Shown piece by piece: positions 30,603 through 46,392 of a stretch of 48,366 bases of DNA (within the stretch, counting starts at the first letter, position 1; every line of letters begins with the position of its first letter). The notes beneath the pieces were generated by a model. That model worked only from the letters and a program-made list of their open reading frames with translations. It ran no database searches and had not been told where the DNA came from. Source of the stretch: Phycisphaerae bacterium (GTDB lineage: Bacteria; Planctomycetota; Phycisphaerae; Sedimentisphaerales; Anaerobacaceae); the NCBI GenBank assembly GCA_003553245.1, contig PWDX01000034.1, positions 1-48,366 on the forward strand, read 5' to 3'. Made by a program: the position numbers and the translations under genes.

Positions 30603-32021
30603 ATGTCCTGCCCGAAAGTATTGCTGGTTAACACTAATCGCGCTCAGCCTCCTGTTGCTCCTGTAGGACTGGACTATCTGGCGGCGGCACTGGAGCATAA
30701 GGCAATTGAGCCTGTTCTTGTGGATCTGGCCTGGGAAAATTCTACAGAGCAGGCACTAAAGCATGCGATTGAAAAGCACTGCCCCGATCTTATCGGCCTG
30801 TCCGTTCGAAATATAGATGACAGTTCTTCTTCCACACGCGAGTTTTTCCTTGATCCGGTTCGTGACATCGTATCGTTTCTAAAAACAAATTACGCAGTGC
30901 CGGTCGTCCTCGGCGGATGCGGTTTTTCTATAATGCCTGATAGGGCTTTACGATACTGCGGCGGCAATTTCGGTATAAAAGGCGACGGCGAAAATGCCTT
31001 GGCCGAGCTTGCGATGCGTTTGCATAAAGGACAGGATTATAAAGATATTGCCGGACTGGTGTTTTTCGAGCAAGGCACAGCCGTAGCCAATAAAACCGAA
31101 TATGCGCATATCGAGGATATGGAGTTTTTGAGTAAGCGGAATTTCATTGATAACCGCCGTTACTTTGAACAAGGCGGACAGGGAAATATAGAAACCAGAC
31201 GCGGCTGCGATCAGAATTGCACCTATTGCGCCGACCCAATAGCCAAAGGCAGGTCAATGCGGTTTCGCAGACCGGAGCATGTTGTAGAAGAGTTGAGCAA
31301 TCTGGTAGAGAAGGGTGTTGACTGTTTTCATTTTTGTGATTCAGAGTTTAATTTGCCTCCGAACTATGCCGAAAAAGTATGCCAGGCTACTATCAAAAGC
31401 GGTCTTAATGATGTAATAAAATGGTACGCTTATTGCGGTTGTGCGCCGTTTCCTTCATCGCTTGGCCAGCTGATGAAAAAATCCGGATGCCTGGGCATAA
31501 ATTTCGGAGCCGACTCGGCAAACCCGCAAATGCTCTCGATATTGGGCAGGGGTCATAACCCGGATGATGTAAAAAAAACAGCTCGGATATGCCGTGACAA
31601 TGAAATTGATGTTATGTTCGATCTGCTCATTGGTGCCCCCTACGAAACAAGGCAAAGCATCCACAGCAGTATCGATTTTTTCAAAGCGATAGATGCTGAC
31701 GCGGTGGGTATATCCGTCGGAATAAGACTTTACGAAGGTACGCCGCTGTATGAGCAGTTGGCAAATGACTCTGCCCGGGCAGTCCACATCAAAGACCCGC
31801 TGTTTCCGCTGTACTATGTCTCTGAAAATCTCGGCAGTGACATCGAAGATTACATACGCGATTTAACCGCCGATGATGAGCGTTTCCTCTCATTCGAAGC
31901 GGGCGACGCTGACCGCGACTACGGCTACACCGATAACCAACTACTTGTAAACGCGATTAAAAAAGGTTATCGTGGAGCATACTGGCACATATTAAAGCAG
32001 GTACAACAGGAAAAACTTTGA
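30603..32021 (+). CDS. B12-binding domain radical SAM protein
   Basis: This 472-aa protein has an N-terminal Rossmann-like B12-binding domain (PKVLLVNTNRAQPPVAPVGLDYLAAAL, DLIGLSVRN, VVLGGCGFSI) and a radical SAM domain with the cluster motif CDQNCTYC (C about 202, 206 and 209). HFCDSEFNLPP and the later GADSANPQML fit the SPASM-less B12-radical SAM group. No DxHxxG cobalamin motif is obvious, as in several subfamilies. Members catalyse methylations or rearrangements, and the substrate is unknown. It sits between DUF4186 and a macrodomain gene. Confidence 0.9.
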   Translation: MSCPKVLLVNTNRAQPPVAPVGLDYLAAALEHKAIEPVLVDLAWENSTEQALKHAIEKHCPDLIGLSVRNIDDSSSSTREFFLDPVRDIVSFLKTNYAVPVVLGGCGFSIMPDRALRYCGGNFGIKGDGENALAELAMRLHKGQDYKDIAGLVFFEQGTAVANKTEYAHIEDMEFLSKRNFIDNRRYFEQGGQGNIETRRGCDQNCTYCADPIAKGRSMRFRRPEHVVEELSNLVEKGVDCFHFCDSEFNLPPNYAEKVCQATIKSGLNDVIKWYAYCGCAPFPSSLGQLMKKSGCLGINFGADSANPQMLSILGRGHNPDDVKKTARICRDNEIDVMFDLLIGAPYETRQSIHSSIDFFKAIDADAVGISVGIRLYEGTPLYEQLANDSARAVHIKDPLFPLYYVSENLGSDIEDYIRDLTADDERFLSFEAGDADRDYGYTDNQLLVNAIKKGYRGAYWHILKQVQQEKL

Positions 32022-32063
32022 ACCTCTTGCGCATCAAATTTTGTGAAAAAGACAGGTGCGATA

Positions 32064-32609
32064 ATGCAGAAAATAGTAAACGGCGTTAAAATTGAGTGTG
32101 TTCAGGGAGATATTGCTTCGCAGGGCGATATTGCTGCTGTGGTTAATGCCGCGAATGCCCAGCTTAGAATGGGCGGCGGCGTAGCCGGTGCTATTAATCG
32201 CGCTGCCGGAGCGGAGTTGGAGCAGGAATGCCGGCCGCTGGCTCCGATTAAACTCGGCCAGGCCGTTTTAACAGGCGGGCATAAACTGCCGAATAGATAT
32301 ATTATCCACTGCCTCGGCCCTGTTTACGGCAGAGACAAGCCCGAGGACAAGCTGCTGGCAGATTGCTATCGCAACGCCCTGCTGCTTGCAGAAAAGCACA
32401 AAATAGAATCAATCGCATTTCCTGCCATATCTGCCGGCGCGTTCGGCTACCCTGTTGAGGACGCCGCCAGTGTGGCCTTCGGCGCCATTTTGGAAATGAC
32501 CGACAAGCTGAAATATATAAAAATTGTCCGCTTTGTTTTATACAGCCGAGGCGACCTTGAGGCGCACCAAAATGTTTTATCCGCTCTTGCCACAAATACC
32601 GACAAATGA
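32064..32609 (+). CDS. Macrodomain protein (ADP-ribose / O-acetyl-ADP-ribose hydrolase-like)
   Basis: This compact macrodomain of 181 aa resembles the YmdB/MacroD group that removes ADP-ribose from targets or deacetylates O-acetyl-ADP-ribose. Motifs are VQGDIASQGDIAAVVNAAN, LRMGGGVAGAINRAAG and the phosphate loop IAFPAISAGAFGYP. The ATG at 32064 starts the conserved sequence; an upstream GTG at 32043 in the same frame is possible. It follows the radical SAM gene and precedes the first spermidine-synthase-like gene on the same strand. Confidence 0.93.
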   Translation: MQKIVNGVKIECVQGDIASQGDIAAVVNAANAQLRMGGGVAGAINRAAGAELEQECRPLAPIKLGQAVLTGGHKLPNRYIIHCLGPVYGRDKPEDKLLADCYRNALLLAEKHKIESIAFPAISAGAFGYPVEDAASVAFGAILEMTDKLKYIKIVRFVLYSRGDLEAHQNVLSALATNTDK

Positions 32610-32652
32610 GAATTGAACAAGTGTTTTATATATTGAGCTTCGAGTGGCGATA

Positions 32653-35091
32653 ATGAAAAAAGTGCCTGCTCATTTTTTTTCTGTTCTGATGCTTGGCATA
32701 ATCTCCCAGATAGCCCAGGTGGTTCTTCTGCGCGAGTTGCTGATGGTTTTTCACGGCAATGAGCTTTCTATCGGCATCATTCTGGCAGCCTGGATGGCTT
32801 GGGTTGGTGTTGGAAGCGCCATCGGAGCGACAATAGCTCAGCGGACAAATCGTTCTCTGACTATTTTAACCTTAAATATCGCAGCCATATTACCATTACT
32901 GGTAATTACAGTTTCTGTCATACGCGGATTGAGGGGATTCTTTGATGTTACACCCGGAGCGTATTTGTCTTTGCCGGATATTATTATCTCCAGCTTTGTC
33001 GTTATGGCGCCGCTGTGTCTGCTTATCGGGATGCAGTTTGTACTGCTGGCAAAGATCTGGCGGCAGAGTGACGGTGCGGTAGGAATGTCCGGCGCAGGCA
33101 AAACATACATAGGCGAAGCCGCGGGAAATATCATCGGCGGAATAGTCTTTACATTCGCGATGGTGCGTTACCTAAACTCATTTCAATCTGTAGTTCTGGC
33201 CGGTATGCTAATGGCCGCCGGTGTCCTTTGGAGTGCTCGAAAAGTCGCCGGTTCAACGACGAAAGTGCATTGGCAAATACGCACTGTCGTCATTGTTTTG
33301 CTGATTGTCGCAGGTGCATCCCTTGCATTTCTCGGCTATGTGAACGATTGGGCATATACAATTCAATGGCGGTATTTCGCACCTGAACACCAGCTTGTCG
33401 AGACTCATCAATCCAAATATGGAAATATCACAATAGCTCGTCGTGATGATCAATACAGCTTTTTCAGGAGCGGACACCTGATGTTTGCCACTGCCGGACC
33501 AGAAACACTGGTGCCGCATTTTGAACAGCAGCAGGCATCAGTATTTGCACATTTCGCTATGGTTCAACACTCCCAACCCAAGAGCGTTCTGCTGATCGGC
33601 GGCGGCTTGCGCGGCACACTCAGCGAAATAGCCAAACATCCCGTCGAGCAGATTGATTATGTCGAATTGGATGAAGTGCTGACCAAAGCGGCCAAGCCTT
33701 ATATTGCCCAGGCCACGCTGACAGCATTGGCTGATCCGCGAGTTCGGCTAATTCACGCTGACGGCAGAGTCTTCGTGAAAGAAGCCGACAAAAAATATGA
33801 TATGATAATCGTTGATATTCCTGATCCTGCCACGGCAGTACTGAACCGCTATTATACTAACGAGTTTTTCGCACAGGCCGGCAGCCTGCTTAATACGGAT
33901 GGAGTGTTTGTTATAGGGGCTGTCTCAACTTCAGGGCTGCGAAGCAGATCTGTGGCTAATAGAAACACCACGATATACCACACTTTGAGAAGCGTTTTTT
34001 CAAATGTCCTGCCGGTAGGGGAACGATTTTTGTTTTACTTTGCCTCGGATTCGCCAGAGCAGATATCATCCGATGCGGCTGTACTTCAACAACGATATAT
34101 GCAACGGAATATCCAGTCCGAGGGTTTTTCCGGCCAACATTTTCATCTGTTGCTGGAGCAGTCGCAGCTTCGACGAATTAACTGTATAATCCGCAATCAT
34201 GGCCGCACCGACGAAGCTCACCTTGCCGGGCCGCAGACCGGACCCATTTTACCTCAGTCTATATCGCAGCAACAAAAAATAGAAGATGAATTGCCGCCGG
34301 TGCGCACACAGTTCTTCATAAATTCCGATTTCAAGCCTATTGGGTACTACTACACACTGATGTTCTGGGGCGACCTGACACGAGCCGGCCATACGGAGAT
34401 AGTTGGCCGATTGTTACAAATTCAACGGTGGTGGATTGTGCCTGCGATCGTCTTTTTTATTGGCCTTTCTATAATTCTGCGACTCTTAGGCAGTTTAACC
34501 GCTAAAAAAACCGATATGCAGTTCGCAGTGATTTTCGCGGTATTCACAACGGGGCTTTCAACGATGATACTGCAAATCGCACTTATATTTTCCTTTCAAA
34601 GCATATACGGCTTTATCTATGAGATGGTGGGGCTGATAGTTGCTATATTTATGGCGGGTTTGGCGATAGGGACGGCGATTACTCATAGATATGTTGCTAA
34701 TAAGGCGAACACAAATACGCTTGCAGCGGTACAGTTCGCAATAGCGGCTCTGGCTTGCTTAATAGCAGTTTTACTGCCACGCGCCGCCGCGATTGAATCG
34801 GCTGCGATTGTTTTTATGCTGTTTTCGGTTCTGACTTTTGTGTCGGGGTTGCTGAACGGACTGGATTTTCCGCTGGCAGCAGAATGTTTTATGGCTTTGA
34901 ATCGTCAGGCTGAAAGATCCGCTGGAACCGTTTATGGTATAGAACTGTTTGGCGCGTGTTTGGGAGCAATTGTTGCAAGTGCGGTTGTGGCTCCGATTAT
35001 GGGAATAATAGCGTGTTGCCTTCTGGCGGCAATAGTTAACGGCACCGCTTTTGTGGTATTAATGATATCGAGGAGACCGTATGGGTGGTAA
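32653..35091 (+). CDS. Membrane protein with embedded spermidine-synthase-like domain (first copy)
   Basis: This protein of about 812 aa has roughly six hydrophobic helices at the N-terminus (up to about residue 230), a soluble Rossmann methyltransferase/aminopropyltransferase-like domain and a C-terminal hydrophobic block of about six helices. The soluble domain has VLLIGGGLRGTLSEIAKHP near 312 and IIVDIPDPATAVLNRYYTNEFF near 386; the Asp-containing VDxxDP block typical of polyamine aminopropyltransferases is kept. Fused membrane/spermidine synthase proteins are known but poorly characterised. Start: ATG 32653, with a GTG possible at 32644. It overlaps the following radical SAM gene by 11 bp. 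Confidence 0.87.
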   Translation: MKKVPAHFFSVLMLGIISQIAQVVLLRELLMVFHGNELSIGIILAAWMAWVGVGSAIGATIAQRTNRSLTILTLNIAAILPLLVITVSVIRGLRGFFDVTPGAYLSLPDIIISSFVVMAPLCLLIGMQFVLLAKIWRQSDGAVGMSGAGKTYIGEAAGNIIGGIVFTFAMVRYLNSFQSVVLAGMLMAAGVLWSARKVAGSTTKVHWQIRTVVIVLLIVAGASLAFLGYVNDWAYTIQWRYFAPEHQLVETHQSKYGNITIARRDDQYSFFRSGHLMFATAGPETLVPHFEQQQASVFAHFAMVQHSQPKSVLLIGGGLRGTLSEIAKHPVEQIDYVELDEVLTKAAKPYIAQATLTALADPRVRLIHADGRVFVKEADKKYDMIIVDIPDPATAVLNRYYTNEFFAQAGSLLNTDGVFVIGAVSTSGLRSRSVANRNTTIYHTLRSVFSNVLPVGERFLFYFASDSPEQISSDAAVLQQRYMQRNIQSEGFSGQHFHLLLEQSQLRRINCIIRNHGRTDEAHLAGPQTGPILPQSISQQQKIEDELPPVRTQFFINSDFKPIGYYYTLMFWGDLTRAGHTEIVGRLLQIQRWWIVPAIVFFIGLSIILRLLGSLTAKKTDMQFAVIFAVFTTGLSTMILQIALIFSFQSIYGFIYEMVGLIVAIFMAGLAIGTAITHRYVANKANTNTLAAVQFAIAALACLIAVLLPRAAAIESAAIVFMLFSVLTFVSGLLNGLDFPLAAECFMALNRQAERSAGTVYGIELFGACLGAIVASAVVAPIMGIIACCLLAAIVNGTAFVVLMISRRPYGW

Positions 35092-36238
35092 AAATATCGA
35101 TGGACAGGGATTAACCAAAAGGGAATTTCTCCAGGCGGGCTTAGGTGGATTTTGCGCACTATGTGTTGCGGGAATTGGGACCGGTGCAAATAAGGGCTAT
35201 GCCCAGACTGCTCGCAAAGGATTTTTCAGGCCAAGACCCGGCAAGTGGTTCGAAAAAGCAGACAACAATAACATCCGATGCAGATTATGCCCCTGGGAGT
35301 GTAAATTACAGCCCGGGCAAAGAGCCAGATGCCGCGTAAGAAGCAATCATGACGGCACCGGCCATACCCTGGCTTACGGAAATCCCGTCCTGGTGCAGGA
35401 AGACCCGGTCGAACGCAAACCTTTCTTTCATATTCTGCCCGGCAGCAGGGCGCTGTCGGTTTCCACGGCCGGCTGTAACCTGTCCTGCAAATTCTGCGAG
35501 GTCTGGGATATGGCGCTGGTCGATCCCGAAGAGGTCCACGCCTATGACATGCCGCCCGGAACCGTGATCGAACACGCCAAAGCGGCAAATCTGAAATCAA
35601 TAAGCTATGCTTTCGGAGAGCCGGTGGTCTTCTATGAATATATGCTTGAAACCGCGAAACTGGCCAAAAAAGCAGGGCTTTTAAACCTGCTCCACACCGC
35701 CGGTTACATACAGCCGGAGCCGCTCAAAGAGCTGATCGACAAAATCGACGCAGTTAACATCGATCTGAAAAGCTTTGATTCTGATTTTTACAGAGATGTC
35801 TGCGGCGGCAAGCTGGAGCCTGTCCTTGAATCACTTAAACTTTTAAGGCAAGCCGGGGTGCATATCGAGATCACTACCATCCTGATACCTACCCTTAATG
35901 ATGACATAAAAAAAATCGAGCAGATGTGTAAGTGGATAAAAAACGAGCTTGGTGGTGATGTGCCTATCCACTTTGCCCGCTTCTATCCGCTTTATAAACT
36001 TGCGAATCTCCCGCAGACACCCGTTTCTACGCTCGACAAAGCCCGAGAGACGGCGATGGATGCAGGCCTTGAATATGTTTATGTAGCCAGGGTTACGGGG
36101 CATGCAGGCGAGAATACATTCTGTCCGTCCTGCGGAGACACTGTGATTAAGCGGCTTGGCTTTGTCGTTGACGAAATACACCTGGCTGGGGGTAATTGTG
36201 CTCATTGCGGCGCTGCCATTCCGGGCAAATGGACATAA
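35081..36238 (+). CDS. amrS: AmmeMemoRadiSam-type radical SAM enzyme with Tat-like N-terminus
   Basis: The 385-aa protein matches the radical SAM member of the AmmeMemoRadiSam system, related to pyruvate-formate-lyase activators. A Cys-rich N-terminal part (CRLCPWECKLQPGQRARC) precedes the radical SAM motif CNLSCKFC (near residues 131-138). Later blocks ISYAFGEPVVFYEY and AVNIDLKSFD are typical, and a C-terminal zinc-finger-like pair (CPSCGD, CAHCGA) follows. The N-terminus reads LTKREFLQAGLGGFCALCVAG, like a Tat signal with KR in place of RR. The genes for the other two system members (AMMECR1- and Memo-like) are not in this window. The start is supported by GAGGAG just upstream and is translationally coupled to the preceding gene. 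Confidence 0.92.
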   Translation: MGGKNIDGQGLTKREFLQAGLGGFCALCVAGIGTGANKGYAQTARKGFFRPRPGKWFEKADNNNIRCRLCPWECKLQPGQRARCRVRSNHDGTGHTLAYGNPVLVQEDPVERKPFFHILPGSRALSVSTAGCNLSCKFCEVWDMALVDPEEVHAYDMPPGTVIEHAKAANLKSISYAFGEPVVFYEYMLETAKLAKKAGLLNLLHTAGYIQPEPLKELIDKIDAVNIDLKSFDSDFYRDVCGGKLEPVLESLKLLRQAGVHIEITTILIPTLNDDIKKIEQMCKWIKNELGGDVPIHFARFYPLYKLANLPQTPVSTLDKARETAMDAGLEYVYVARVTGHAGENTFCPSCGDTVIKRLGFVVDEIHLAGGNCAHCGAAIPGKWT

Positions 36239-36239
36239 A

Positions 36240-37298
36240 TCAGCCTAAACGGCGGCGGTGCATCTGCGCCATTGAAAGCGACCTTTCGTCCAGATTCCTA
36301 AGTCCTGTCTCCTGAGCCCATTCTATAGCCTCGAGAAACTCCTTTGAGGTTATGGAACGGGCGATGCGTTCATGTTCAAAGGCCTGATGTTCAACCCTGT
36401 ATTGAGCCATTATATTCACATAGGTATCTTTAGTGAGATTCTCAGCCACCCACTTTACAAACTCTCTCGTACCGGCTACATGGTTGGGCATTACAAGATG
36501 ACGGACCATCAGGCCACGCAGTGCAATATCGCGATCATTTTTAACAAGCTCACCGACCTGTCTGTGCATTTCAATTATTGCCTGCTGAGCCATTTCAGGG
36601 TAGTCTTTTGCTCCACCTGTAACATAGCGGGCCGATTCCTCGCCATCCATAAACTTCAGATCGGGCAGATAGATATCTACAATTCCGTCAAGCAGTTCGA
36701 TGTTTTCTTTCATCTCGTAGCCGCCGGTGTTGTAGCAAATAGGCAATCTGAGGCCTTTTTCAAATGCGATGCGGACTGCGCTGATAATATTAGGCATTAC
36801 ATGAGTAGGAGTTACTACATTGATGTTGTGGCATCCCCGCCTCTGGAGGTTGAGCATCATATCGGCCAGAGCCTCATCTGTGATCTCCTGGCCTCGACCT
36901 ACATGAGCGATAGGCCAGTTCTGACAGAATACGCATCGAAGATTACAATTGGAAAAAAATATAGTGCCGGAACCGCTTCGGCCAACCAGAGGCAGCTCTT
37001 CACCAAAGTGTGGCTGATGACTGAAAACTTTTACTTTATCGGTTGCATTGCAAAATCCCTTTTCACCGGCCTTTCGGTTTACTTCGCACCTGCGCGGACA
37101 AAGTCGGCATTTCTCAAATTTACTGTAAGCCTGCTCAACCCGTTCAGAGAGTTTCCCCTCGCTTTCAAGCTTCGCGTAAGCCGGCTGCCAGGAGTCGGAG
37201 TTTTCCTCGGCATTGGTTTTCGGTGAACAGGCTTCAAGAAAAACGGCTCCACCTGCCAAGGCCATATTTTTTATGAAAGCTCTGCGAGTAACATCCAT
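36240..37298 (-). CDS. PflX-like radical SAM protein with Tat lipoprotein-like signal
   Basis: The 352-aa protein belongs to the COG1313-type radical SAM group (PflX-like, homologous to pyruvate formate-lyase activators). The pre-cluster motif CRLCPRRCEVNRKAGEKGFC is followed by CNLRCVFC near residues 119-126, then HNINVVTPTHVMPNI, YNTGGYE and DIYLPDLKFMDG. Its N-terminus MDVTRRAFIKNMALAGGA followed by VFLEAC combines a twin-arginine signal with a lipobox. I start at ATG 37298, with GGAG eight bases upstream. It converges on amrS with a single base between the stops, and is divergent from the lipoprotein gene. Confidence 0.91.
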   Translation of the reverse strand: MDVTRRAFIKNMALAGGAVFLEACSPKTNAEENSDSWQPAYAKLESEGKLSERVEQAYSKFEKCRLCPRRCEVNRKAGEKGFCNATDKVKVFSHQPHFGEELPLVGRSGSGTIFFSNCNLRCVFCQNWPIAHVGRGQEITDEALADMMLNLQRRGCHNINVVTPTHVMPNIISAVRIAFEKGLRLPICYNTGGYEMKENIELLDGIVDIYLPDLKFMDGEESARYVTGGAKDYPEMAQQAIIEMHRQVGELVKNDRDIALRGLMVRHLVMPNHVAGTREFVKWVAENLTKDTYVNIMAQYRVEHQAFEHERIARSITSKEFLEAIEWAQETGLRNLDERSLSMAQMHRRRLG

Positions 37299-37571
37299 TT
37301 TCACAGCTCCATAATGATTAACTTCGCTGCTGCTGACCAAAGATGATTCATTATAAAAACCCCAGTAAAAGCACAGTTATCTACACCACTATGCAGTATA
37401 ACTGAACAGGGCCTTCAGGTCAAATAGAAACCGTTTGCCTTGCAAACAAACATAACAGCCGGTTATTTATCCATCATAATATACTCTTGCAATTCATCCT
37501 CAGGATTGTAAGATAAACGGGTTGTAGAAACATAAATCAAGACGATTTTATCACATTTGAAGGAGTCGATT

Positions 37572-38537
37572 ATGAAATCAGCTATTTATGTATTATCCGT
37601 TGGCGCAATTTTCATGACGCTTATGGTGGCTGGTTGTGGCCCCGAGCCCTCCGCACAGCGCCAGTCCGCGTTTATCGGCCTTGGCTTTGAGGTCGGCCAG
37701 ACGGAGTCTTACCGAGTGGTAACTGAAAATTCGCGAAGCCTCGAGTTTGGAGGCGCCCTTGAAGGACACGAAAGTATTTCAGGAGGCACTCGGGCAAGCA
37801 GTCTGGAAATGGAATTTGACCAGGAAATCCAAGGCGTTGATAATGAAGGCAATGCAGTCGCTGAAATCACCATAACAACCCTTAAGGTACGGTCCGAATC
37901 AGACGGTGATGTAGTTCTGGATTTTGACAGCGCCGCCGATGAACAGAGCCCGATGGCTGGACTGATTGGCAAAGGATATACTATAAAGATCGCCCACACC
38001 GGCGAAGTTGTCGAGGTAATGGATTTGGACCAGGCCAGAAGAGCGATAAGGGGCGGCCCCGCTAAAACCAGGCAGGGTCGAGCGCTTCTGGAGACCGACG
38101 CCGTGAAAGACAGACACGGCATTTCAAAACTTCCCGCCAAAAACATCGCAATTGGGCAGGACTGGAGCAGCGTCAAGAACTTTTCCTTTGATATGATGGG
38201 CACGCGAAACCTCGAAAGAATATACACGCTCAGGGAAATCAGAACAGCCAACGGCGAAGAAATAGCCGTTGCTGATGTCACTGCCATACCAACGGCCAGA
38301 GATGCGTCTATGGCAGATGAGGATGATCCTGTAATGTCATTTTTCGGTGAAATGTTCGATATAAGCCACGAATACGAAGGTAGTGTAAAGCTCAACCTCA
38401 CCCAAGGTAAATTAGACGCTGCCTCTGAAAAACTCATTGCGAACTGGGTTGCCGCCGGTCCCGTACATGACCAGGAAGAAGACGGTTTGCTTTATATGAC
38501 ATCTGAGGTTTTCAAAAGTATCGAAAGGCTGAAGTAG
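37572..38537 (+). CDS. Lipoprotein, resembling DUF6263-type proteins
   Basis: The ATG at 37572 has AAGGAG seven bases upstream and yields a 321-aa lipoprotein with signal MKSAIYVLSVGAIFMTLMVAGC (C22 lipidated). The mature part is rich in beta-strand-like sequence (YRVVTENSRSLEF, EMEFDQEIQGVDNEGNAVAEITITTLKV) and includes GKGYTIKIAHTGEVVEVMDL and IGQDWSS. This suggests a family of planctomycete and Bacteroidetes surface proteins similar to DUF6263, which I assign with moderate confidence. It lies 4 bp before the isoaspartyl methyltransferase gene and starts a three-gene run with it and the second spermidine-synthase-like gene. Confidence 0.72.
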   Translation: MKSAIYVLSVGAIFMTLMVAGCGPEPSAQRQSAFIGLGFEVGQTESYRVVTENSRSLEFGGALEGHESISGGTRASSLEMEFDQEIQGVDNEGNAVAEITITTLKVRSESDGDVVLDFDSAADEQSPMAGLIGKGYTIKIAHTGEVVEVMDLDQARRAIRGGPAKTRQGRALLETDAVKDRHGISKLPAKNIAIGQDWSSVKNFSFDMMGTRNLERIYTLREIRTANGEEIAVADVTAIPTARDASMADEDDPVMSFFGEMFDISHEYEGSVKLNLTQGKLDAASEKLIANWVAAGPVHDQEEDGLLYMTSEVFKSIERLK

Positions 38538-38541
38538 TTTT

Positions 38542-39423
38542 ATGGCAATGAAAAAGACACAAAGCCGGCGACAACACAAAGATAACTCTTGCGGGTTTTG
38601 CGGAAGTCTGCGATACCCTTTGATGCTATGCTTATTCGCGGGATGCCTTTTTATTTTAATTTTGCCGATTTCGGCGGGAGCGTCGAATAATGATTCTCCA
38701 GACCAGAGCCAGCCAAACGATGTGAACGAACCCGCCAAAGAGATTCCGCGTCCGAGCCACGATCATCCGTCATTTGAAGAACGAACCGAAGAACGGCTCA
38801 GGATGGTCGAGACTCAGATAACCGACAGAGGGGTTGAAGACCCTAATACTATTGCCGCGATGCAAACTGTCCCCCGGCATATGTTCGTGCGGCAGCAGGA
38901 TCGTTTCCGCGCATACAGCGATCAGCCTATGCCCATCGGTTACGGCCAGACAATTAGCCAGCCCTATATCGTTGCATATATGACTGAGAAACTGGAGCTT
39001 GACCCCAACGATGTTGTCCTCGAAATCGGAGCGGGAAGCGGCTACCACGCCGCTGTAGCCGCCGAGACGGCCCGTGCGGTTTACACCATCGAGATAGTAT
39101 CCGAGCTTGCCGAGTCCGCAGAGGAAACTCTCAGAGAGCTTGGCTATAAAAATGTCTTCGTAAAAGACGGTGACGGTTATTACGGCTGGCCTGAATTCGG
39201 CCCATATGATGCAATCGTCGTAACCGCCGCCGCGGGCTTTGTTCCGCCGCCGCTGTTGGAACAGTTAAAACCCGATGGAAAACTGGTTATGCCACTGGGA
39301 AGCCCCTATGGCATGCAGACGCTGGTCGTGGTTACGCGCGATGAGGAAAATCGCGTCCGTAGCAGGCGACTGATGCCGGTGCGTTTTGTTCCAATGACCG
39401 GACGAGCGTTAGAGAGACAATAA
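38542..39423 (+). CDS. pcm: Protein-L-isoaspartate O-methyltransferase with N-terminal signal/anchor
   Basis: PCMT repairs damaged aspartyl residues by SAM-dependent methylation. The catalytic part (about residues 85-290) is intact: MQTVPRHMFV, GYGQTISQPYIVAYM, the SAM site VLEIGAGSGYHAAVAAET near residue 158, and PYDAIVVTAAAGFVPPPLLEQL. Unusually the protein begins with a basic stretch and a hydrophobic segment at about 26-45 (PLMLCLFAGCLFILILPISAG), then a charged linker, so it is exported or membrane-anchored. It sits directly between the lipoprotein and the second spermidine-synthase-like gene (gaps of 4 and 5 bp). Confidence 0.93.
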   Translation: MAMKKTQSRRQHKDNSCGFCGSLRYPLMLCLFAGCLFILILPISAGASNNDSPDQSQPNDVNEPAKEIPRPSHDHPSFEERTEERLRMVETQITDRGVEDPNTIAAMQTVPRHMFVRQQDRFRAYSDQPMPIGYGQTISQPYIVAYMTEKLELDPNDVVLEIGAGSGYHAAVAAETARAVYTIEIVSELAESAEETLRELGYKNVFVKDGDGYYGWPEFGPYDAIVVTAAAGFVPPPLLEQLKPDGKLVMPLGSPYGMQTLVVVTRDEENRVRSRRLMPVRFVPMTGRALERQ

Positions 39424-39428
39424 CCCGC

Positions 39429-41903
39429 TTGAATAGAGTTTCTTTCGTTGCAGGGATGCCTATGCTGTGGCTTTCGATATTTCTGGTTTCCGCGGCTGTG
39501 CTGGGACTTGAGCTTACACTGGTGCGGGCGCTTTCGATAAGTCACTGGCATCACTTCTCCTACCTTGTCATAAGTACATCTCTGCTGGGCTTCGGCGCAG
39601 GGGCCGTAGCGGTCAGTTTTATACTGCGATATTTCGAAGGGCGAATTCGGCGTTGTTTATGGATTTTCGCTATCGGAATGGGCGTGGCCGCCCCTCTTAG
39701 TTTCGCCCTAGCGCAGATGGTCAATCTCGATGAGCTTCAGCTAATATGGGATTATCGACAGACCTTTTATCTTGGCCTCTATTATCTGTTGTTTTTTGTC
39801 CCGTTTTTCTTTGGTGGAGGCTTTGTCGCAGCTTCTTTTGGCGGTTTCGGCAACCAGGCCGGCAAAGTATATTTCTTTAATATGGCAGGCTCAGCCGCCG
39901 GTGCAGGTATCGCGGTTTTGCTCATGTACGGACGCTCGCCTGTTGAGCTGATCCCCTTTATCAGCGGGGCGGTCTTTCTTGCGGCATTGCTGATTTCGCT
40001 GGACTCACCAATTCGCGCAATAATCTCGGCTTTGGCGGCAGTGGCTTTTGTAGCTGTATTCAGTTCCGGCGGACTTTGGCCTCTGGAACAAACAATAAGC
40101 GAAAATAAGCCTCTGGTATATTATAAGGCACTGCCCGATGTGCGAATAGAGCATCGGCAGTACTCACCGATAGCCAGGCTCGACACAATCCGGGCGCCAA
40201 GCGTTCGTCACTTTCCGGGCTTGAGTATGTCGTATTTGGGACAGGTCCCGCAACAGGTGTTGATAATCAGCGACGCTGCCGGTATCTCAGCAGTTAATCA
40301 TTTCGAGCAAACCGCCGAGCTTGGAACTTATGACTATACCTGCTCGGCTCTGCCTTATCATCTTATCAGTGAACCGCAGGTCTGCGTCCTTCAGGCAGGG
40401 GCGGGCTCATCTGTAGGCCAGGCGCTTCTGCTGGGAGCGTCAAAAGTTACCGCCGTGGAAGTCAACGACCAGATTGTAAATCTCGTTAGCGAGCAATTAG
40501 GTGACTTTTCCGGCAATATCTACAACCGCCCCGATGTAAATATCGTTGTTGCAGAGGGCAGAACATTTCTCCATCGCTACAGAGAAAAATTCGATATTAT
40601 CACAATGACGCTCGGCGGAGGTGATGCCGGCGGAGCCGGACTCAGCTCACTCAATGAGACGCATCTTTACACAGTCGAAGCGATTAGCAGAGCTATGCAA
40701 AGACTCAATGACAACGGCCTGCTAAGTATAAATCTCGGCTTGAAATCGCCCCCAAGGGACAGTCTGAAGATGATCGCCACGGTGACGCAGGTTCTTGAGT
40801 CGCGTGACGACATAGCCGACCCAGCCAAACACATAGCTATAATACGAAGCTGGGCTGACGCGACTATAATAGTTTCACCTAAGCCGCTTAGTGCCGAAAA
40901 TCTCGCCAAAATTCGGGCCTTTACCGATATGCGGTCTTTTGACCTGGTTTACCTGCCAGACATTGAGCCGGATGAAATAAACATTTTCCACGCTCTCGAT
41001 GAGCCGGTTTACCACGAAGGCGCTATGGAGATAATCACCGGCGACGCTGAGAGGTTCTTTAACGATTACGCCTATAATATCCGCCCTGCCGTTGACGACA
41101 GACCTTACTTTTTCGATTTCTTCCGTTGGCAGGGAGTGCCTGTAATGATACGCGAAGTTCCGGAACAATGGCTCACCCTTTCGGAGTGGGGATATCTCGT
41201 GCTGGTCGCTACATTGGCACAGGCCCTGGCCGCCAGTGCGATATTCATAATACTGCCGGTCTGGGTGGCAAAACCCATACGCAAAGCTGGAAAAGGTAAG
41301 GCCTCGGTAATGGCATACTTTCTGCTGCTCGGCCTTGCGTATATGCTCCTTGAAATGGGTTTCATTCAAAAGCTTACATTGTTGATTGGCCATCCGGTTT
41401 TCGGCGTAGCCGTTACGCTAGTTGGTTTTCTTGGTTTTTCCGGTTTGGGCGCTCTGGCAGGCAGGTGGATACTATCACGATGGACCGCCGGCGAAACTTC
41501 TCCGGCCAGACGCAGCCGGGCCGGCACGCTGCTGATCAGATGCGCAATAGCCGTAACGATTGTCGTAGCGTTGCTGGAATTGCTGCTGCTGGCAATCGGC
41601 TTTGAGTGGCTGGCGGGATTCGACCGCACAGCAAGGATAGCCGTTGGGCTGGTTATTACCGCCGTGCCTGCGTTCTTTATGGGTATGCCGCTGCCCACCG
41701 CCATAAACTTTTTATATGAAAACAGACGCCGACTTATCCCCTGGGCCTGGAGCGTCAACGGCTTTGCATCCGTAAACGGCGCGGTTCTGGGAACTATGCT
41801 GGCAATATCAGCAGGTTTTAACAATCTGGTAATCGTGGCATTATGCGCCTACCTCTTAGCCGCCGTCATAGCCCCGCGCGTCTGCGGACAGGATAATAAC
41901 TGA
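39429..41903 (+). CDS. Membrane protein with spermidine-synthase-like domain (second copy, degenerate active site)
   Basis: It has the same overall layout as the first copy: hydrophobic N-terminal block, Rossmann-like domain (VLQAGAGSSVGQALLLGASKVTAVEVND near 319) and C-terminal hydrophobic block (MAYFLLLGLAYMLLEMGFIQ, then several helices). The block that should carry the catalytic Asp-x-x-Asp-Pro reads FDIITMTLGGGDAGGAG here, so aminopropyl transfer seems unlikely. The start is uncertain: TTG 39429 reaches back 6 bp from the PCMT stop, but ATG 39462 has AGGG six bases upstream. It is co-transcribed with the lipoprotein and PCMT genes. Confidence 0.86.
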   Translation: MNRVSFVAGMPMLWLSIFLVSAAVLGLELTLVRALSISHWHHFSYLVISTSLLGFGAGAVAVSFILRYFEGRIRRCLWIFAIGMGVAAPLSFALAQMVNLDELQLIWDYRQTFYLGLYYLLFFVPFFFGGGFVAASFGGFGNQAGKVYFFNMAGSAAGAGIAVLLMYGRSPVELIPFISGAVFLAALLISLDSPIRAIISALAAVAFVAVFSSGGLWPLEQTISENKPLVYYKALPDVRIEHRQYSPIARLDTIRAPSVRHFPGLSMSYLGQVPQQVLIISDAAGISAVNHFEQTAELGTYDYTCSALPYHLISEPQVCVLQAGAGSSVGQALLLGASKVTAVEVNDQIVNLVSEQLGDFSGNIYNRPDVNIVVAEGRTFLHRYREKFDIITMTLGGGDAGGAGLSSLNETHLYTVEAISRAMQRLNDNGLLSINLGLKSPPRDSLKMIATVTQVLESRDDIADPAKHIAIIRSWADATIIVSPKPLSAENLAKIRAFTDMRSFDLVYLPDIEPDEINIFHALDEPVYHEGAMEIITGDAERFFNDYAYNIRPAVDDRPYFFDFFRWQGVPVMIREVPEQWLTLSEWGYLVLVATLAQALAASAIFIILPVWVAKPIRKAGKGKASVMAYFLLLGLAYMLLEMGFIQKLTLLIGHPVFGVAVTLVGFLGFSGLGALAGRWILSRWTAGETSPARRSRAGTLLIRCAIAVTIVVALLELLLLAIGFEWLAGFDRTARIAVGLVITAVPAFFMGMPLPTAINFLYENRRRLIPWAWSVNGFASVNGAVLGTMLAISAGFNNLVIVALCAYLLAAVIAPRVCGQDNN

Positions 41904-42153: not shown

Positions 42154-42552
42154 ATGGCAAGAACAAAACAAAAAATCGACTCTAACCCTGAACTTACCGA
42201 AGCTGAGTGGGCAATTATGGAAATTGTCTGGCAAAATGAACCCTGTGCGGCAGGAACAGTTCAGGAAGCTCTGAAGAAAAGCAAAGACTGGGCTTACAGC
42301 ACTGTAAAAACAACAATGGACCGCATGACCGATAAAGGTCTGCTAAAAATTACAAAAATCCGCAACCTACAGCTTTTCAGCTCAAGAATCAGTAAAGACG
42401 ACGCGAGAAAATGCGAATTTCGAAAAATGCTCAAACGCGCTTTCGACGGTGCCCTTACTCCTATGATGCAGTTTTTGGTTGAGCAAGAAGAATTGAGTAA
42501 AAACGATTTGAATCAACTTCGCCAATGTGTGGAAAATGCCCGAAAGAAATAA
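42154..42552 (+). CDS. BlaI/MecI/CopY family transcriptional repressor
   Basis: This 132-aa winged-helix repressor has the N-terminal domain LTEAEWAIMEIVWQ, AYSTVKTTMDRMTDKGLL with the recognition helix, and a C-terminal dimerisation helix. In known pairs the membrane peptidase partner (BlaR1-like) triggers cleavage of the repressor after sensing a signal. Here the M56 peptidase gene follows 24 bp downstream, a match for such a pair. The promoter above and GGAGACTG (ribosome-binding site) fit. No beta-lactamase is nearby, so the signal is unlikely to be simply penicillin. Confidence 0.93.
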   Translation: MARTKQKIDSNPELTEAEWAIMEIVWQNEPCAAGTVQEALKKSKDWAYSTVKTTMDRMTDKGLLKITKIRNLQLFSSRISKDDARKCEFRKMLKRAFDGALTPMMQFLVEQEELSKNDLNQLRQCVENARKK

Positions 42553-42576
42553 ATCTAATCATAGGAGGCCTTAAAA

Positions 42577-45500
42577 ATGACATCGCTAATAAATTTTTTA
42601 AACTCGACGGGGGATAGTTTTTGCAGATTCGCTTTGGCGATGCTTATACAGTCCGGCATTCTGATAGCCGTGCTGTACCTGATCGACCGGCTCATAAGAA
42701 AACATGTCAGGGCGGTTTTCAGATATGGCATCTGGATGCTGGTATTCGTTAAACTTGTTTTGCCGCCGGCCTTATCCCTGCCTACAGGGGTTGGGTACTG
42801 GTTTGAATTTGATATTTTACCTGCCGGTAATCAGGCCTCTACAGAGATACCTGAACAGGCTGCTGACCGCCAAACCGAGTCCTTGCCGGCTCAATACGAA
42901 TTTGAACATTCATCACCTGCTACAATAGTCCCCGATACGCATGTGCCAGCGCAGACACCCCCTGTTGTTGACAATCGCACACCCACACAGCCTGTACAAC
43001 CCTCTGAACCGGATACTTTTTCAGTTGATACAGCGGAACAGACAGAGCAAGCAGCGGATCAGGATGTTGCGATTACCGCCCAGGCTGTTATTTTTCTCGT
43101 ATGGGTTATGGGAGTGGTAGTTCTTTCGGTATTACTCATACAAAAGTTTATATTTGTAAAAGCGCTTCTTGCTCAAAGCGATGTCGCCGCCGGGCGGTTA
43201 GATGAAACACTCAGACAATGCTGTAAGCAGATGAACATGCGCCGAAACATTCAAATGCGCCTTTCCAAAAATATGCTCAGCCCCGCGGCGTGCGGTTTGT
43301 TCAGGCCGATGATTCTAATGCCGGCAGGCCTGCTGGCAAACCTGACCAGAGAAAAATTAAGAGCAGTTTTAATCCACGAACTTGCGCACATAAAAAGAGG
43401 TGATTTGTGGGTGAATTTTATACAAACTATCCTCCAGATAATTTACTTTTATAACCCGCTGTTATGGCTTGCCAATGCCCTGATAAGAAATATCCGCGAA
43501 AAAGCCGTTGACGAGATGGTGCTTGCCAGGCTTGGCGACAAAGCTGATAGTTACAGCAGTACACTGATAGACATCGCAGAGATCGCTTTCTCAAAACCGC
43601 ACTTCAGTTTACGGCTTGTCGGCGTGGTAGAATCCAAAAAAGCACTGTCAGGCCGAATAAAGCATATCTTAACCAAGCCGTTTCCGAAATCCGCGAAACT
43701 CGGGTTGTCAGGGCTGGCACTTGTTGCTGTGCTCGGGGCAATTCTGCTACCGATGGCTCGAGCTGATAAAACACAGAATGTTTTAAGAGAAATAAACGAG
43801 GAGTTGAACATTTCTGATAAAGCGGGAAAGCTCACTATACATTCGTTATATATGGCTCCCCCAGAAGGTAAAAGACTGCTATGGCCAAATAATACATCAC
43901 TTAATGTGACTATAACGAACAGTTCTAAAGAAATAGCATATCTTGGTCTTCAATACTACGCAGATTCCGGTACTGCCGGCTACTTTTTTTCTCCGGGAGT
44001 AACGAGCCCGCTGCCACAAATAAAGTCAATCCCTCCGGGCTGGAGCGGCACCATTGAATATTCCATAAAATACCCTCGTTTTACGAAAAACGGCTTGATC
44101 GACATCAAATTAGCCAAATGCGCTGATGCAACAACGGCCCGACACCTGCCGTCAGATGCGGAAGTCCTGCACGAAAAGAAATACTACCTTTATTCGGAAA
44201 ACGATATTTCCCACTCTCTGTTGCCCTCATCGAATTCGGATGAAAAGAGTTTTAGGGCAAAAGCAGATATGCAAAATCAGGAGTCGTCTATCGCCACGCT
44301 GGCCAATGGTGTTACTGTTGAACTGGTAGGTATTTGTGAGCATCCCAGTGAGGGCAAACAATGGTGGCGACCGGATGGTGCGGTGCTTGATGATGCGCCG
44401 TTTGATTCTAGCTCAAATCGTGTAACCCCTTCGAGTAACTATCGGGCGTATGATTTTGCGATTCGCTATACCAATATTCCGGATGGGATGGACAGCCTTT
44501 TTTATGCCGAACCATCACGTGCGAGTAGTGGCGGGTCGCTTTACGCGACAGTCAAAAAGAACGGCGAAGAATTGCACCACTATCAAGACGGCCGGCTGGT
44601 TTCTGCCGTCTCGTCTCTGGCAACACTCATTCATAAGGATGAAAAGACTTGCACAGTCAGGGTAGGCGTTTCCGATGGTCCGTGGACAACGCGTTATGAA
44701 TCCGGCAAGTCAGAGACCGGTAGATTTTCAGTATCCGGGCGAGCAGATGCCGAAAGTGGCGTGGTCTTTGGCAGGCCCATGGAGGAAGATCAGCAAACAT
44801 GGTTTCCGGTTACCTTTACAATCGACACAAACCTTTATGAGGTGCGGATTATCGCTGTGGGGCAAGACGGCAAAGTACATAAACCAGTCCGCACCCAAGG
44901 CGCCAGGGCAGACGAGGCAACACAGCGAACAGTTTGTTTTGATTCTCCTGTTGACGAGCTTTCAGCCGTCCAGTTGCAGGTCCGGCCCTACGAATGGGTG
45001 GAATTTAAAGATGTTGCCCTTGGGCCAAATGTTGATCAGGATTCAGAGACAATTTCAACCGAACCCGATATTGATCTTATGTTCCTGTCCTGGTATCCAA
45101 TGTCGTCACAAGAGCCGGAGGTCTTCTGGACACAGGATGGAAGCGTTCAACAGATAGACAATCGGGGCAATGTGATAAGTCCGGAGGGTGTAACGCCGGA
45201 AATGATGCCCGTTGATATAAGGACAATGGGTTCATTAGGGCCTGAGGAGCATTATAGTCGTCCCATTCGGCTGTGGTTTTACAATCAAAGCCATAATAGA
45301 TATCCGGTTGGGTTGGTTCCCCGCCTGAAAGGCCAAGACATGTATACCGGTGCGGTTCGGGGCATAGATTCAGAGTGGATTCCGGCGGGTATCGCATTGA
45401 TGCATGACCAGAACGAAGAAGCTAAATGGCCTGAATTCGGCGACATTAAAATATCGTATGCCGTAAATGACTGGCAGACCATTGCCGACTTTGACACCCG

Positions 45501-46392
45501 AGGCGGACGGGAACGGGAATTTGCTGCTGATGAGGGAATCCAATGGTTTTTTGCAGAAACCGACGACGGGTTGGATATTTCATTACGGTTTGATGAGGCT
45601 CCCGACCATGACCGGATTGAATACCGCTATGAATTGGTTGGCCGCGATGAGGAGCATCAGCATGCGTCTATCAGAGGGCTTGAGCAGAACGGACAATTGG
45701 AGACCTATAGTTACAAAACGCTCAGACCGTCGGACCTTGGCCGCGTGAAAATCCAATCCCGCCCGCGCACGACAAAGGTATTTGAACACATCGCCCTTCG
45801 GCCCGACATCAAAACGGATGTGGAAGTTATTACGGTTACGGATAAGCCAGAAGTCGCAAGTCAGGAGACAGCAGAGACAATCGGCAAACTTGAGTTTCGG
45901 GTTGTGCCTTCACTATCGCCTCAGCAGGCGAATGAAATTGATTATCCGGAAAGCGATGCGGATGGATATAAGTGGCTGCCGGCAAGGAAAGAAGACGATC
46001 CCGATAGAGAGCGGCCGTGGTACACGGGAATGCCCTACCGAACGGTTGAAAACACCGTCTATGGGCTGGTCAGCGATAAAACGGATGAGATACTTCTGGC
46101 CGACGGCACATGGGGATTGCAGGATGTTTATGAAACATCTGACCCAATGGGCAGGCCGGTTGTGGGGTTTGATTTTGACGAAAAAGGCGCGGACTTGTTC
46201 TATCGTCTTACGAGTCAACATACAGGAAAGCGACTGGCAATCATAATTGATGGGGTGATTTACTCGGCTCCGGCCATCCAATCCGCTGTCAGAGGAAAAG
46301 GAGTCATCACCGGTCATTTCGATGAGGCTGAAATTGACCGACTGGTTCACCTCTTGCAATCCGGCATGCCGCCGGAAGTTGACGATCTCTAG
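42577..46392 (+). CDS. M56 (BlaR1-like) metallopeptidase with planctomycete repeats and a C-terminal SecD P1-head-like domain
   Basis: This 1271-aa membrane protein has N-terminal transmembrane segments (about residues 15-75), an extracytoplasmic Gln/Pro/Thr-rich spacer, another helix near 170, and the zinc-peptidase motif HELAHIKRGDLW at about residues 267-278. A further hydrophobic segment near 380 precedes a large extracytoplasmic part. That part contains planctomycete-style domains (VTVELVGICEHPSEGKQWW; IDLMFLSWYPMS). From about residue 1105 to the end it looks like the SecD P1 head (FDEKGADLFYRLTSQHTGKR, AIIIDGVIYSAPAIQSAV, ITGHFDEAEIDRLVHLLQSG). It is a sensor/protease partner for the BlaI repressor. 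Sensing domain identity is inferred. Confidence 0.85.
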   Translation: MTSLINFLNSTGDSFCRFALAMLIQSGILIAVLYLIDRLIRKHVRAVFRYGIWMLVFVKLVLPPALSLPTGVGYWFEFDILPAGNQASTEIPEQAADRQTESLPAQYEFEHSSPATIVPDTHVPAQTPPVVDNRTPTQPVQPSEPDTFSVDTAEQTEQAADQDVAITAQAVIFLVWVMGVVVLSVLLIQKFIFVKALLAQSDVAAGRLDETLRQCCKQMNMRRNIQMRLSKNMLSPAACGLFRPMILMPAGLLANLTREKLRAVLIHELAHIKRGDLWVNFIQTILQIIYFYNPLLWLANALIRNIREKAVDEMVLARLGDKADSYSSTLIDIAEIAFSKPHFSLRLVGVVESKKALSGRIKHILTKPFPKSAKLGLSGLALVAVLGAILLPMARADKTQNVLREINEELNISDKAGKLTIHSLYMAPPEGKRLLWPNNTSLNVTITNSSKEIAYLGLQYYADSGTAGYFFSPGVTSPLPQIKSIPPGWSGTIEYSIKYPRFTKNGLIDIKLAKCADATTARHLPSDAEVLHEKKYYLYSENDISHSLLPSSNSDEKSFRAKADMQNQESSIATLANGVTVELVGICEHPSEGKQWWRPDGAVLDDAPFDSSSNRVTPSSNYRAYDFAIRYTNIPDGMDSLFYAEPSRASSGGSLYATVKKNGEELHHYQDGRLVSAVSSLATLIHKDEKTCTVRVGVSDGPWTTRYESGKSETGRFSVSGRADAESGVVFGRPMEEDQQTWFPVTFTIDTNLYEVRIIAVGQDGKVHKPVRTQGARADEATQRTVCFDSPVDELSAVQLQVRPYEWVEFKDVALGPNVDQDSETISTEPDIDLMFLSWYPMSSQEPEVFWTQDGSVQQIDNRGNVISPEGVTPEMMPVDIRTMGSLGPEEHYSRPIRLWFYNQSHNRYPVGLVPRLKGQDMYTGAVRGIDSEWIPAGIALMHDQNEEAKWPEFGDIKISYAVNDWQTIADFDTRGGREREFAADEGIQWFFAETDDGLDISLRFDEAPDHDRIEYRYELVGRDEEHQHASIRGLEQNGQLETYSYKTLRPSDLGRVKIQSRPRTTKVFEHIALRPDIKTDVEVITVTDKPEVASQETAETIGKLEFRVVPSLSPQQANEIDYPESDADGYKWLPARKEDDPDRERPWYTGMPYRTVENTVYGLVSDKTDEILLADGTWGLQDVYETSDPMGRPVVGFDFDEKGADLFYRLTSQHTGKRLAIIIDGVIYSAPAIQSAVRGKGVITGHFDEAEIDRLVHLLQSGMPPEVDDL

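Follow-up and report, generated by a model that had tools for sequence, protein, structure and literature searches.

A Planctomycetota gene cluster linking predicted exported SAM enzymes to membrane proteins with a spermidine-synthase fold

Introduction

Teaching assigns SAM and the radical SAM enzymes to the cytoplasm, and in the systems that have been characterised both radical SAM chemistry and the protein-L-isoaspartate O-methyltransferase (PCMT) reaction take place in the cytoplasm. Among the described systems closest to the genes reported here is AmmeMemoRadiSam (TIGR04335/04336/04337), whose canonical copies carry no export signal. The reaction of AmmeMemoRadiSam/MEMO1 is unsolved, and MEMO1 matters in human cells (PMC11081632). 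Other points of comparison are the 'fused MFS/spermidine synthase' proteins of NF037959, which are annotated in genomes as polyamine enzymes; SpeE; the MFS proteins SV2A and SLC45A4, the latter a polyamine transporter (PMC12507699); cytosolic Pcm; and the flavinylated extracytosolic electron transfer systems, in which FMN_bind/Fer4_5-type proteins move electrons across the membrane (PMC8238504). The main text of PMC8238504 does not mention radical, AMMECR1, Memo or spermi-, and a search of the open-access literature (subscription papers lay outside it) returned nothing on exported AmmeMemoRadiSam, periplasmic radical SAM enzymes or the function of MFS-spermidine-synthase proteins.

We report six neighbouring genes (A to F, positions 32644-41903) in a 48,366-nucleotide stretch of DNA, hereafter the window, from a 2.39-Mb MAG of the phylum Planctomycetota (G000, 91.6% complete). 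B scores over TIGR04337, and its relatives pair with Memo and AMMECR1 domains, but B itself is predicted to be exported, is tied to an MFS-spermidine-synthase protein and stands in a genome with no AMMECR1. A exceeds the NF037959 cut-off (52.7 vs 40; F is not listed) and contains the SpeE fold (Z 29.3); it differs from SpeE in having 14 transmembrane segments (TM), a SpeE-like domain predicted to lie outside, an altered acidic site and a genome without SpeD. A and F have the MFS fold in common with SV2A, and A also with SLC45A4, over about 350-370 residues, at a sequence identity of 9-12% that shows no kinship by sequence; they differ in that their inserted domain is a SAM-binding spermidine-synthase fold. 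E passes the Pcm equivalog cut-offs but has a signal/anchor segment and adjoins the spermidine-synthase-like F. Finally, relatives of the locus encode FMN_bind [S/T]GA[S/T] and Fer4_5 proteins like those of the flavinylated systems, but place them beside a radical SAM enzyme.

Gene cluster and transcription units

The genes were identified through profile searches against Pfam and NCBIfam (Table 1). These agree with the initial annotation, made from the sequence alone, in its inventory of two large membrane proteins with spermidine-synthase-like domains, an AmmeMemoRadiSam and a PflX-like radical SAM enzyme, a PCMT with a signal/anchor segment, and a lipoprotein.

Table 1. The six genes of the cluster, with window coordinates and supporting profile matches.
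Gene	Product	Coordinates	Strand	Evidence
A	Membrane spermidine-synthase-like protein	32644..35091	+	PF01564 98.4 bits; NF037959 over cut-off
B	AmmeMemoRadiSam radical SAM enzyme	35081..36238	+	TIGR04337 348 bits (cut-off 220)
C	PflX-like radical SAM enzyme	36240..37340	-	PF04055
D	DUF6263 lipoprotein	37557..38537	+	PF19777; VAGC lipobox
E	PCMT with signal/anchor segment	38542..39423	+	PF01135, NF001453, TIGR00080
F	Second membrane spermidine-synthase-like protein	39429..41903	+	PF01564 23.9 bits (cut-off 22.9)

The tight spacing had been taken as a sign that all the genes form one co-operating set. The 11-bp overlap of A and B and the gaps of 4 bp (D/E) and 5 bp (E/F) are as described; the remaining '1 bp' lies between the convergent ends of B and C, C being on the minus strand, and C and D diverge across 216 bp. 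Since C is convergent with B and divergent from D, the transcription units are A-B, C and D-E-F, and a single operon is rejected because of the opposite strand of C. D, the first gene of its unit, was also set aside as a module member, as no D-like neighbour occurs in the E/F loci examined. The single set thus gives way to two conserved modules, A-B-C and E-F, in three transcription units. A lack of conservation outside the source genome had been set beforehand as the refuting result, and this was not what was found: each module is kept in other families and phyla, and canonical radical SAM loci lack such neighbours, so the clustering goes beyond chance.

Export signals of the radical SAM enzymes

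In alignments, the invariant cysteines of B, namely the radical SAM motif CxxxCxxC at 132/136/139 and the N- and C-terminal Cys motifs, are intact. Both B and C had been credited with Tat-type N-termini and one of them with a lipobox. C does have a Tat motif (TRRAFIKN), with a Cys after the hydrophobic stretch; its lipobox, LEAC, is not textbook, having Glu at -2, and the Cys is kept there in all six A-B-C or B-C loci. B begins with TKREFLQ, which has KR, not RR; its nearest relatives have RR. TatC is encoded in the source genome (G000:C225).

The source genome carries two paralogues, B and a canonical copy (G000:C38). Among the relatives found by searching with B, the canonical group is about 37% identical to it and has signal-less starts, and B orthologues in the wider phylum have Tat signals, mostly RR. 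We applied one simple rule set (Tat or Sec-type N-terminus) to the 80 best relatives of B from a scan of named genomes, which span more than 25 lineages, and to relatives from the phylum, with canonical paralogues as controls. Such N-termini were called in 69/80 of the named relatives, a rate biased upwards because these are the ones most like B, in 33/41 phylum relatives and in 0/20 canonical paralogues; some of the signal-less exceptions begin at contig ends. In the Sec-type N-termini the mean net charge falls from +2.0 ahead of the hydrophobic stretch to -0.1 behind it, as expected for an N-in/C-out orientation. Four Tat-bearing relatives, from Chloroflexota (L129:3108-4475), an unplaced bacterium (L168:4657-5901), Acidobacteriota (L181:512-1759) and Latescibacterota (L189:8689-9966), have a CXXCH between the Tat signal and the radical SAM domain, a candidate c-heme motif. 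Attachment of c-heme happens outside the cytoplasm.

On sequence grounds, the predicted location outside the cytoplasm is well supported, as are the export signals, the external placement of the domain of A and F, and the conserved linkage. The export-type N-termini that had first drawn attention to the cluster are real and conserved, and in many phyla the enzymes are associated with membrane proteins that resemble spermidine synthase. Tethering to the inner face of the membrane, offered originally as an equal alternative, is disfavoured by the Tat signals, the N-in/C-out charges, the c-heme motifs and the positive-inside topology of A and F.

One set of relatives, group X (18 loci, including L033-L049), has a radical SAM enzyme with a signal in 0/18 cases, so that export in this group either depends on hitch-hiking or is absent. 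In 17/18 of these loci, a small Tat-signal protein with a core of about 60 aa and the conserved C-terminus YPGxLKPLxDIxxQSKWSG lies between the radical SAM and Memo-AMMECR1 genes (e.g. L048:10435-10695, L036:9080-9268). It may be a hitch-hiking carrier or anchor for the signal-less enzyme, or a peptide substrate.

Membrane proteins A and F

A (815 aa) and F (824 aa) each have 14 TM, arranged as seven TM, a domain of 360-370 residues and another seven TM; in A, the inserted spermidine-synthase-fold domain spans about residues 234-597. With the domain placed outside, the short loops of the window A count 19 K+R inside vs 5 outside. Means across homologues, again with the domain outside, are 21.2 vs 4.2 for A and 17.3 vs 5.9 for F, with agreement in 39/39 and 25/25 homologues, respectively, and the domain is therefore predicted to be extracytoplasmic in 64/64 homologues.

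AF2 models of the two proteins (pTM 0.90; pLDDT 87.9 for A and 89.1 for F) match both spermidine synthase and MFS structures. For A, the MFS matches are SV2A (Z 26.3), PepTSt (19.7) and SLC45A4 (17.8); for F, SV2A (Z 30.2) exceeds spermidine synthase (Z 21.9). Neither protein reaches the NCBIfam equivalog cut-offs for SpeE (A 186 vs 472 and 120 vs 260; F 26 vs 260). The SAM-pocket acids of A are kept, E341 in 37/39 and D373 in 38/39 homologues, together with a family-specific invariant N401-R402. An Asp opens the DxxDP motif in 11/39 homologues, and GGG(D/E)G has lost its acid to another residue; the window A retains both Asp of DxxDP, and the window F has no DxxDP. The AdoMet decarboxylase SpeD (PF02675) was not found in the source genome, which makes aminopropyl transfer by the cluster unlikely. 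Modification of an envelope component with aminopropyl groups, as once proposed, was therefore rejected, given also the weak conservation of the acidic residues typical of aminopropyltransferases.

Genes beside B in relatives

A homologue of A lies within 6.5 kb of B in 40/80 named loci, covering 17 named phyla of which two are archaeal. The figure is 16/41 for phylum loci, 13/18 for group X and 0/20 for canonical loci. In most relatives the Memo and AMMECR1 partners take the form of an exported Memo-AMMECR1 fusion. Such fusions occur near B in 37/80 named loci, the majority of them bearing a signal peptide or a lipobox, and in none of the canonical loci. Clustering of the neighbours in 138 loci yielded, beyond the radical SAM enzyme, Memo-AMMECR1 and A, no family present in more than 10.

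The AMMECR1 and Memo partners had been reported as missing from the window, and they are. AMMECR1 (PF01871) was not found anywhere in the source genome (a MAG 91.6% complete), and Memo is encoded elsewhere, by an unlinked ORF without an obvious signal (G000:C115:6994-7842). The source genome does not hold a full AmmeMemoRadiSam system.

Two further arrangements of the Memo and AMMECR1 genes occur. In several genomes (G416, G293, G271, G180, G373, G261 and others; L276-L294), an exported Memo-AMMECR1 fusion is followed or overlapped by a stand-alone AMMECR1, both unlinked to the Tat radical SAM gene of the same genome. At L106:4568-6871, exported Memo, a partial AMMECR1 and the radical SAM enzyme are joined in frame into one protein of 767 aa. 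We did not accept this fusion as proof of export: its AMMECR1 covers just 1-103 of 168 positions, and the fusion could result from a deletion or from faulty assembly.

The order A>B>C< is found in the window and in four other MAGs (L085, L086, L124, L125; 51-69% identity), and the pair B>C< in L084, on a contig that starts within B. The radical SAM enzymes of these six loci form one clade (SH-aLRT 100). The C homologues of the five loci other than the window are 61-69% identical to the window C, which scores below the equivalog cut-offs for PFL-activase and NrdG2 (best 32.6 vs 131). Homologues of C without a signal exist, and they lack its N-terminal extension. The exported Memo-AMMECR1 fusion was not seen in the source genome or in the other A-B-C and B-C genomes, and is present in nearly all other exported-B genomes checked, even when unlinked; C may thus be its substitute in these genomes.

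Electron-transfer proteins occur in the same neighbourhoods. FMN_bind + Fer4_5 proteins are fused to A or lie beside B in relatives, and all but one of those checked have the [S/T]GA[S/T] flavinylation motif; no such partner was seen in the cluster of this window. Proteins of this kind would suit the electron needs of an extracytoplasmic radical SAM enzyme. The fused forms include A homologues of 1303-1345 aa in L034, L036, L040 and L048, which carry a C-terminal FMN-binding (DAVTGAT) and NosR-like Fer4_5 unit. In L033 and L048 the end is also formed by a similar tail, PRDVDxQRxxTMIxxKxLSDxEAxxYKK.

The E-F module

E exceeds two Pcm equivalog cut-offs (NF001453, 230 vs 188; TIGR00080, 193.5 vs 159), and its N-terminal hydrophobic segment is found in its orthologues too. 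The source genome has a second PCMT without the N-terminal extension (G000:C245), and relatives likewise have two copies, one with the hydrophobic extension and one without. F directly follows E in the window, in six same-family loci and in seven from other families. Over half of the E loci examined within the family have no F beside E. In other genomes the two modules are found at separate places. In another Planctomycetota family, a signal-less C homologue sits directly downstream of F (L227:3840-4733), which is a second link between the modules.

Proposed mechanism and alternatives

The reading that we favour, with moderate confidence, is that the cluster encodes an extracytoplasmic SAM-enzyme system in two modules, with A and F as MFS-type membrane partners that handle SAM. 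B would fold in the cytoplasm, Fe-S clusters included, be exported through Tat and carry out radical SAM chemistry on the outer side of the cytoplasmic membrane. C would be a second exported radical SAM enzyme, in the position that an exported Memo-AMMECR1 fusion holds in most relatives, and E an exported isoaspartyl methyltransferase for the repair or modification of proteins of the envelope. A would partner B and F would partner E, each as an MFS-type transport unit with an external SAM-binding domain; they would most likely export SAM, import spent adenosyl products or do both, and may add an alkyl-transfer step of their own. We infer SAM transport by A and F, and likewise the electron supply, the reaction, its substrate and the source of SAM. 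Pairing each exported SAM enzyme with an MFS-type external-domain protein is the most economical account. Points against the favoured reading are that we know of no SAM source outside the cytoplasm, the KR of B, a genome without AMMECR1 or the exported fusion, the signal-less radical SAM enzyme of group X, the lack of an FMN/Fer4_5 partner in this cluster, signal calls made by simple rules on relatives chosen for likeness to B, and localisation that is predicted throughout.

The two modules could instead be coincidental neighbours, with only A-B and E-F of consequence and the 9-kb cluster an accident of insertion. Three transcription units, the lack of conservation of D and the separation of E-F from A-B-C elsewhere make this a real possibility, though one we lean against, given that C follows F in L227 and faces B in six loci, and that in each module an exported SAM enzyme comes with one and the same unusual membrane architecture. 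Somewhat unlikely, in our judgement, is that the enzymes are extracytoplasmic but A and F are transferases, whose external domain alkylates an envelope lipid or protein while the MFS part anchors or flips the substrate. It would fit the spermidine-synthase fold (Z 29), the conserved E341 and D373, the invariant N401-R402 and the DxxDP Asp pair of the window A, but the first of these Asp residues is present in only 11/39 homologues, the GGG(D/E)G acid is replaced and SpeD is missing; nor does it explain why two such proteins each accompany a different exported SAM enzyme, or how SAM gets out.

We give less credence to an exported maturation complex, in which B (and C) would place a radical or some other modification on an exported partner in the manner of an activase and Memo-AMMECR1 would be the target or co-enzyme in most lineages. 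B and C do resemble PFL-activase/NrdG2-type enzymes, the exported fusion adjoins B in 37/80 loci and group X has its small exported Tat protein, but the neighbour clustering, in which no other family exceeded 10 of 138 loci, offers no obvious target gene, and AMMECR1 is absent from the source genome. Least probable of all is that these are ordinary cytoplasmic or inner-face enzymes whose N-terminal segments are tethers or annotation artefacts. General knowledge of the characterised systems speaks for cytosolic chemistry, as do the signal-less group X enzymes and C homologues; against it are Tat motifs that recur across many phyla and are absent from the canonical paralogue, CXXCH, the N-in/C-out charges and a spermidine-synthase domain predicted to lie outside in all 64 homologues.

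If the extracytoplasmic reading is true, SAM would be available outside the membrane and envelope molecules could be altered by radical chemistry. A and B belong to known families (NF037959 and TIGR04337); there is a substantial chance that the compartment of the chemistry is itself new, and a whole type of chemistry outside the cytoplasm may have been overlooked. The locus would also provide a handle on AmmeMemoRadiSam/MEMO1 and on the 'fused MFS/spermidine synthase' proteins. Only tentatively would we extend the proposal to many bacterial phyla and some archaea, where extracytoplasmic radical SAM chemistry might draw SAM through MFS-spermidine-synthase-fold transporters and electrons through membrane flavin/Fe-S or c-heme proteins, with an exported PCMT on the same SAM supply.

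Flanking genes

A B12-binding radical SAM gene and a macro-domain gene (30603-32609) lie directly upstream of A on the same strand. They were considered as members of the cluster and rejected, as B loci contain no close copies (a macro domain only in L149, and weak). Downstream, at 42154-46392, translations read by eye indicate a BlaI/MecI-like regulator and, after it, a BlaR1-like M56 protease whose C-terminal extension is very long.
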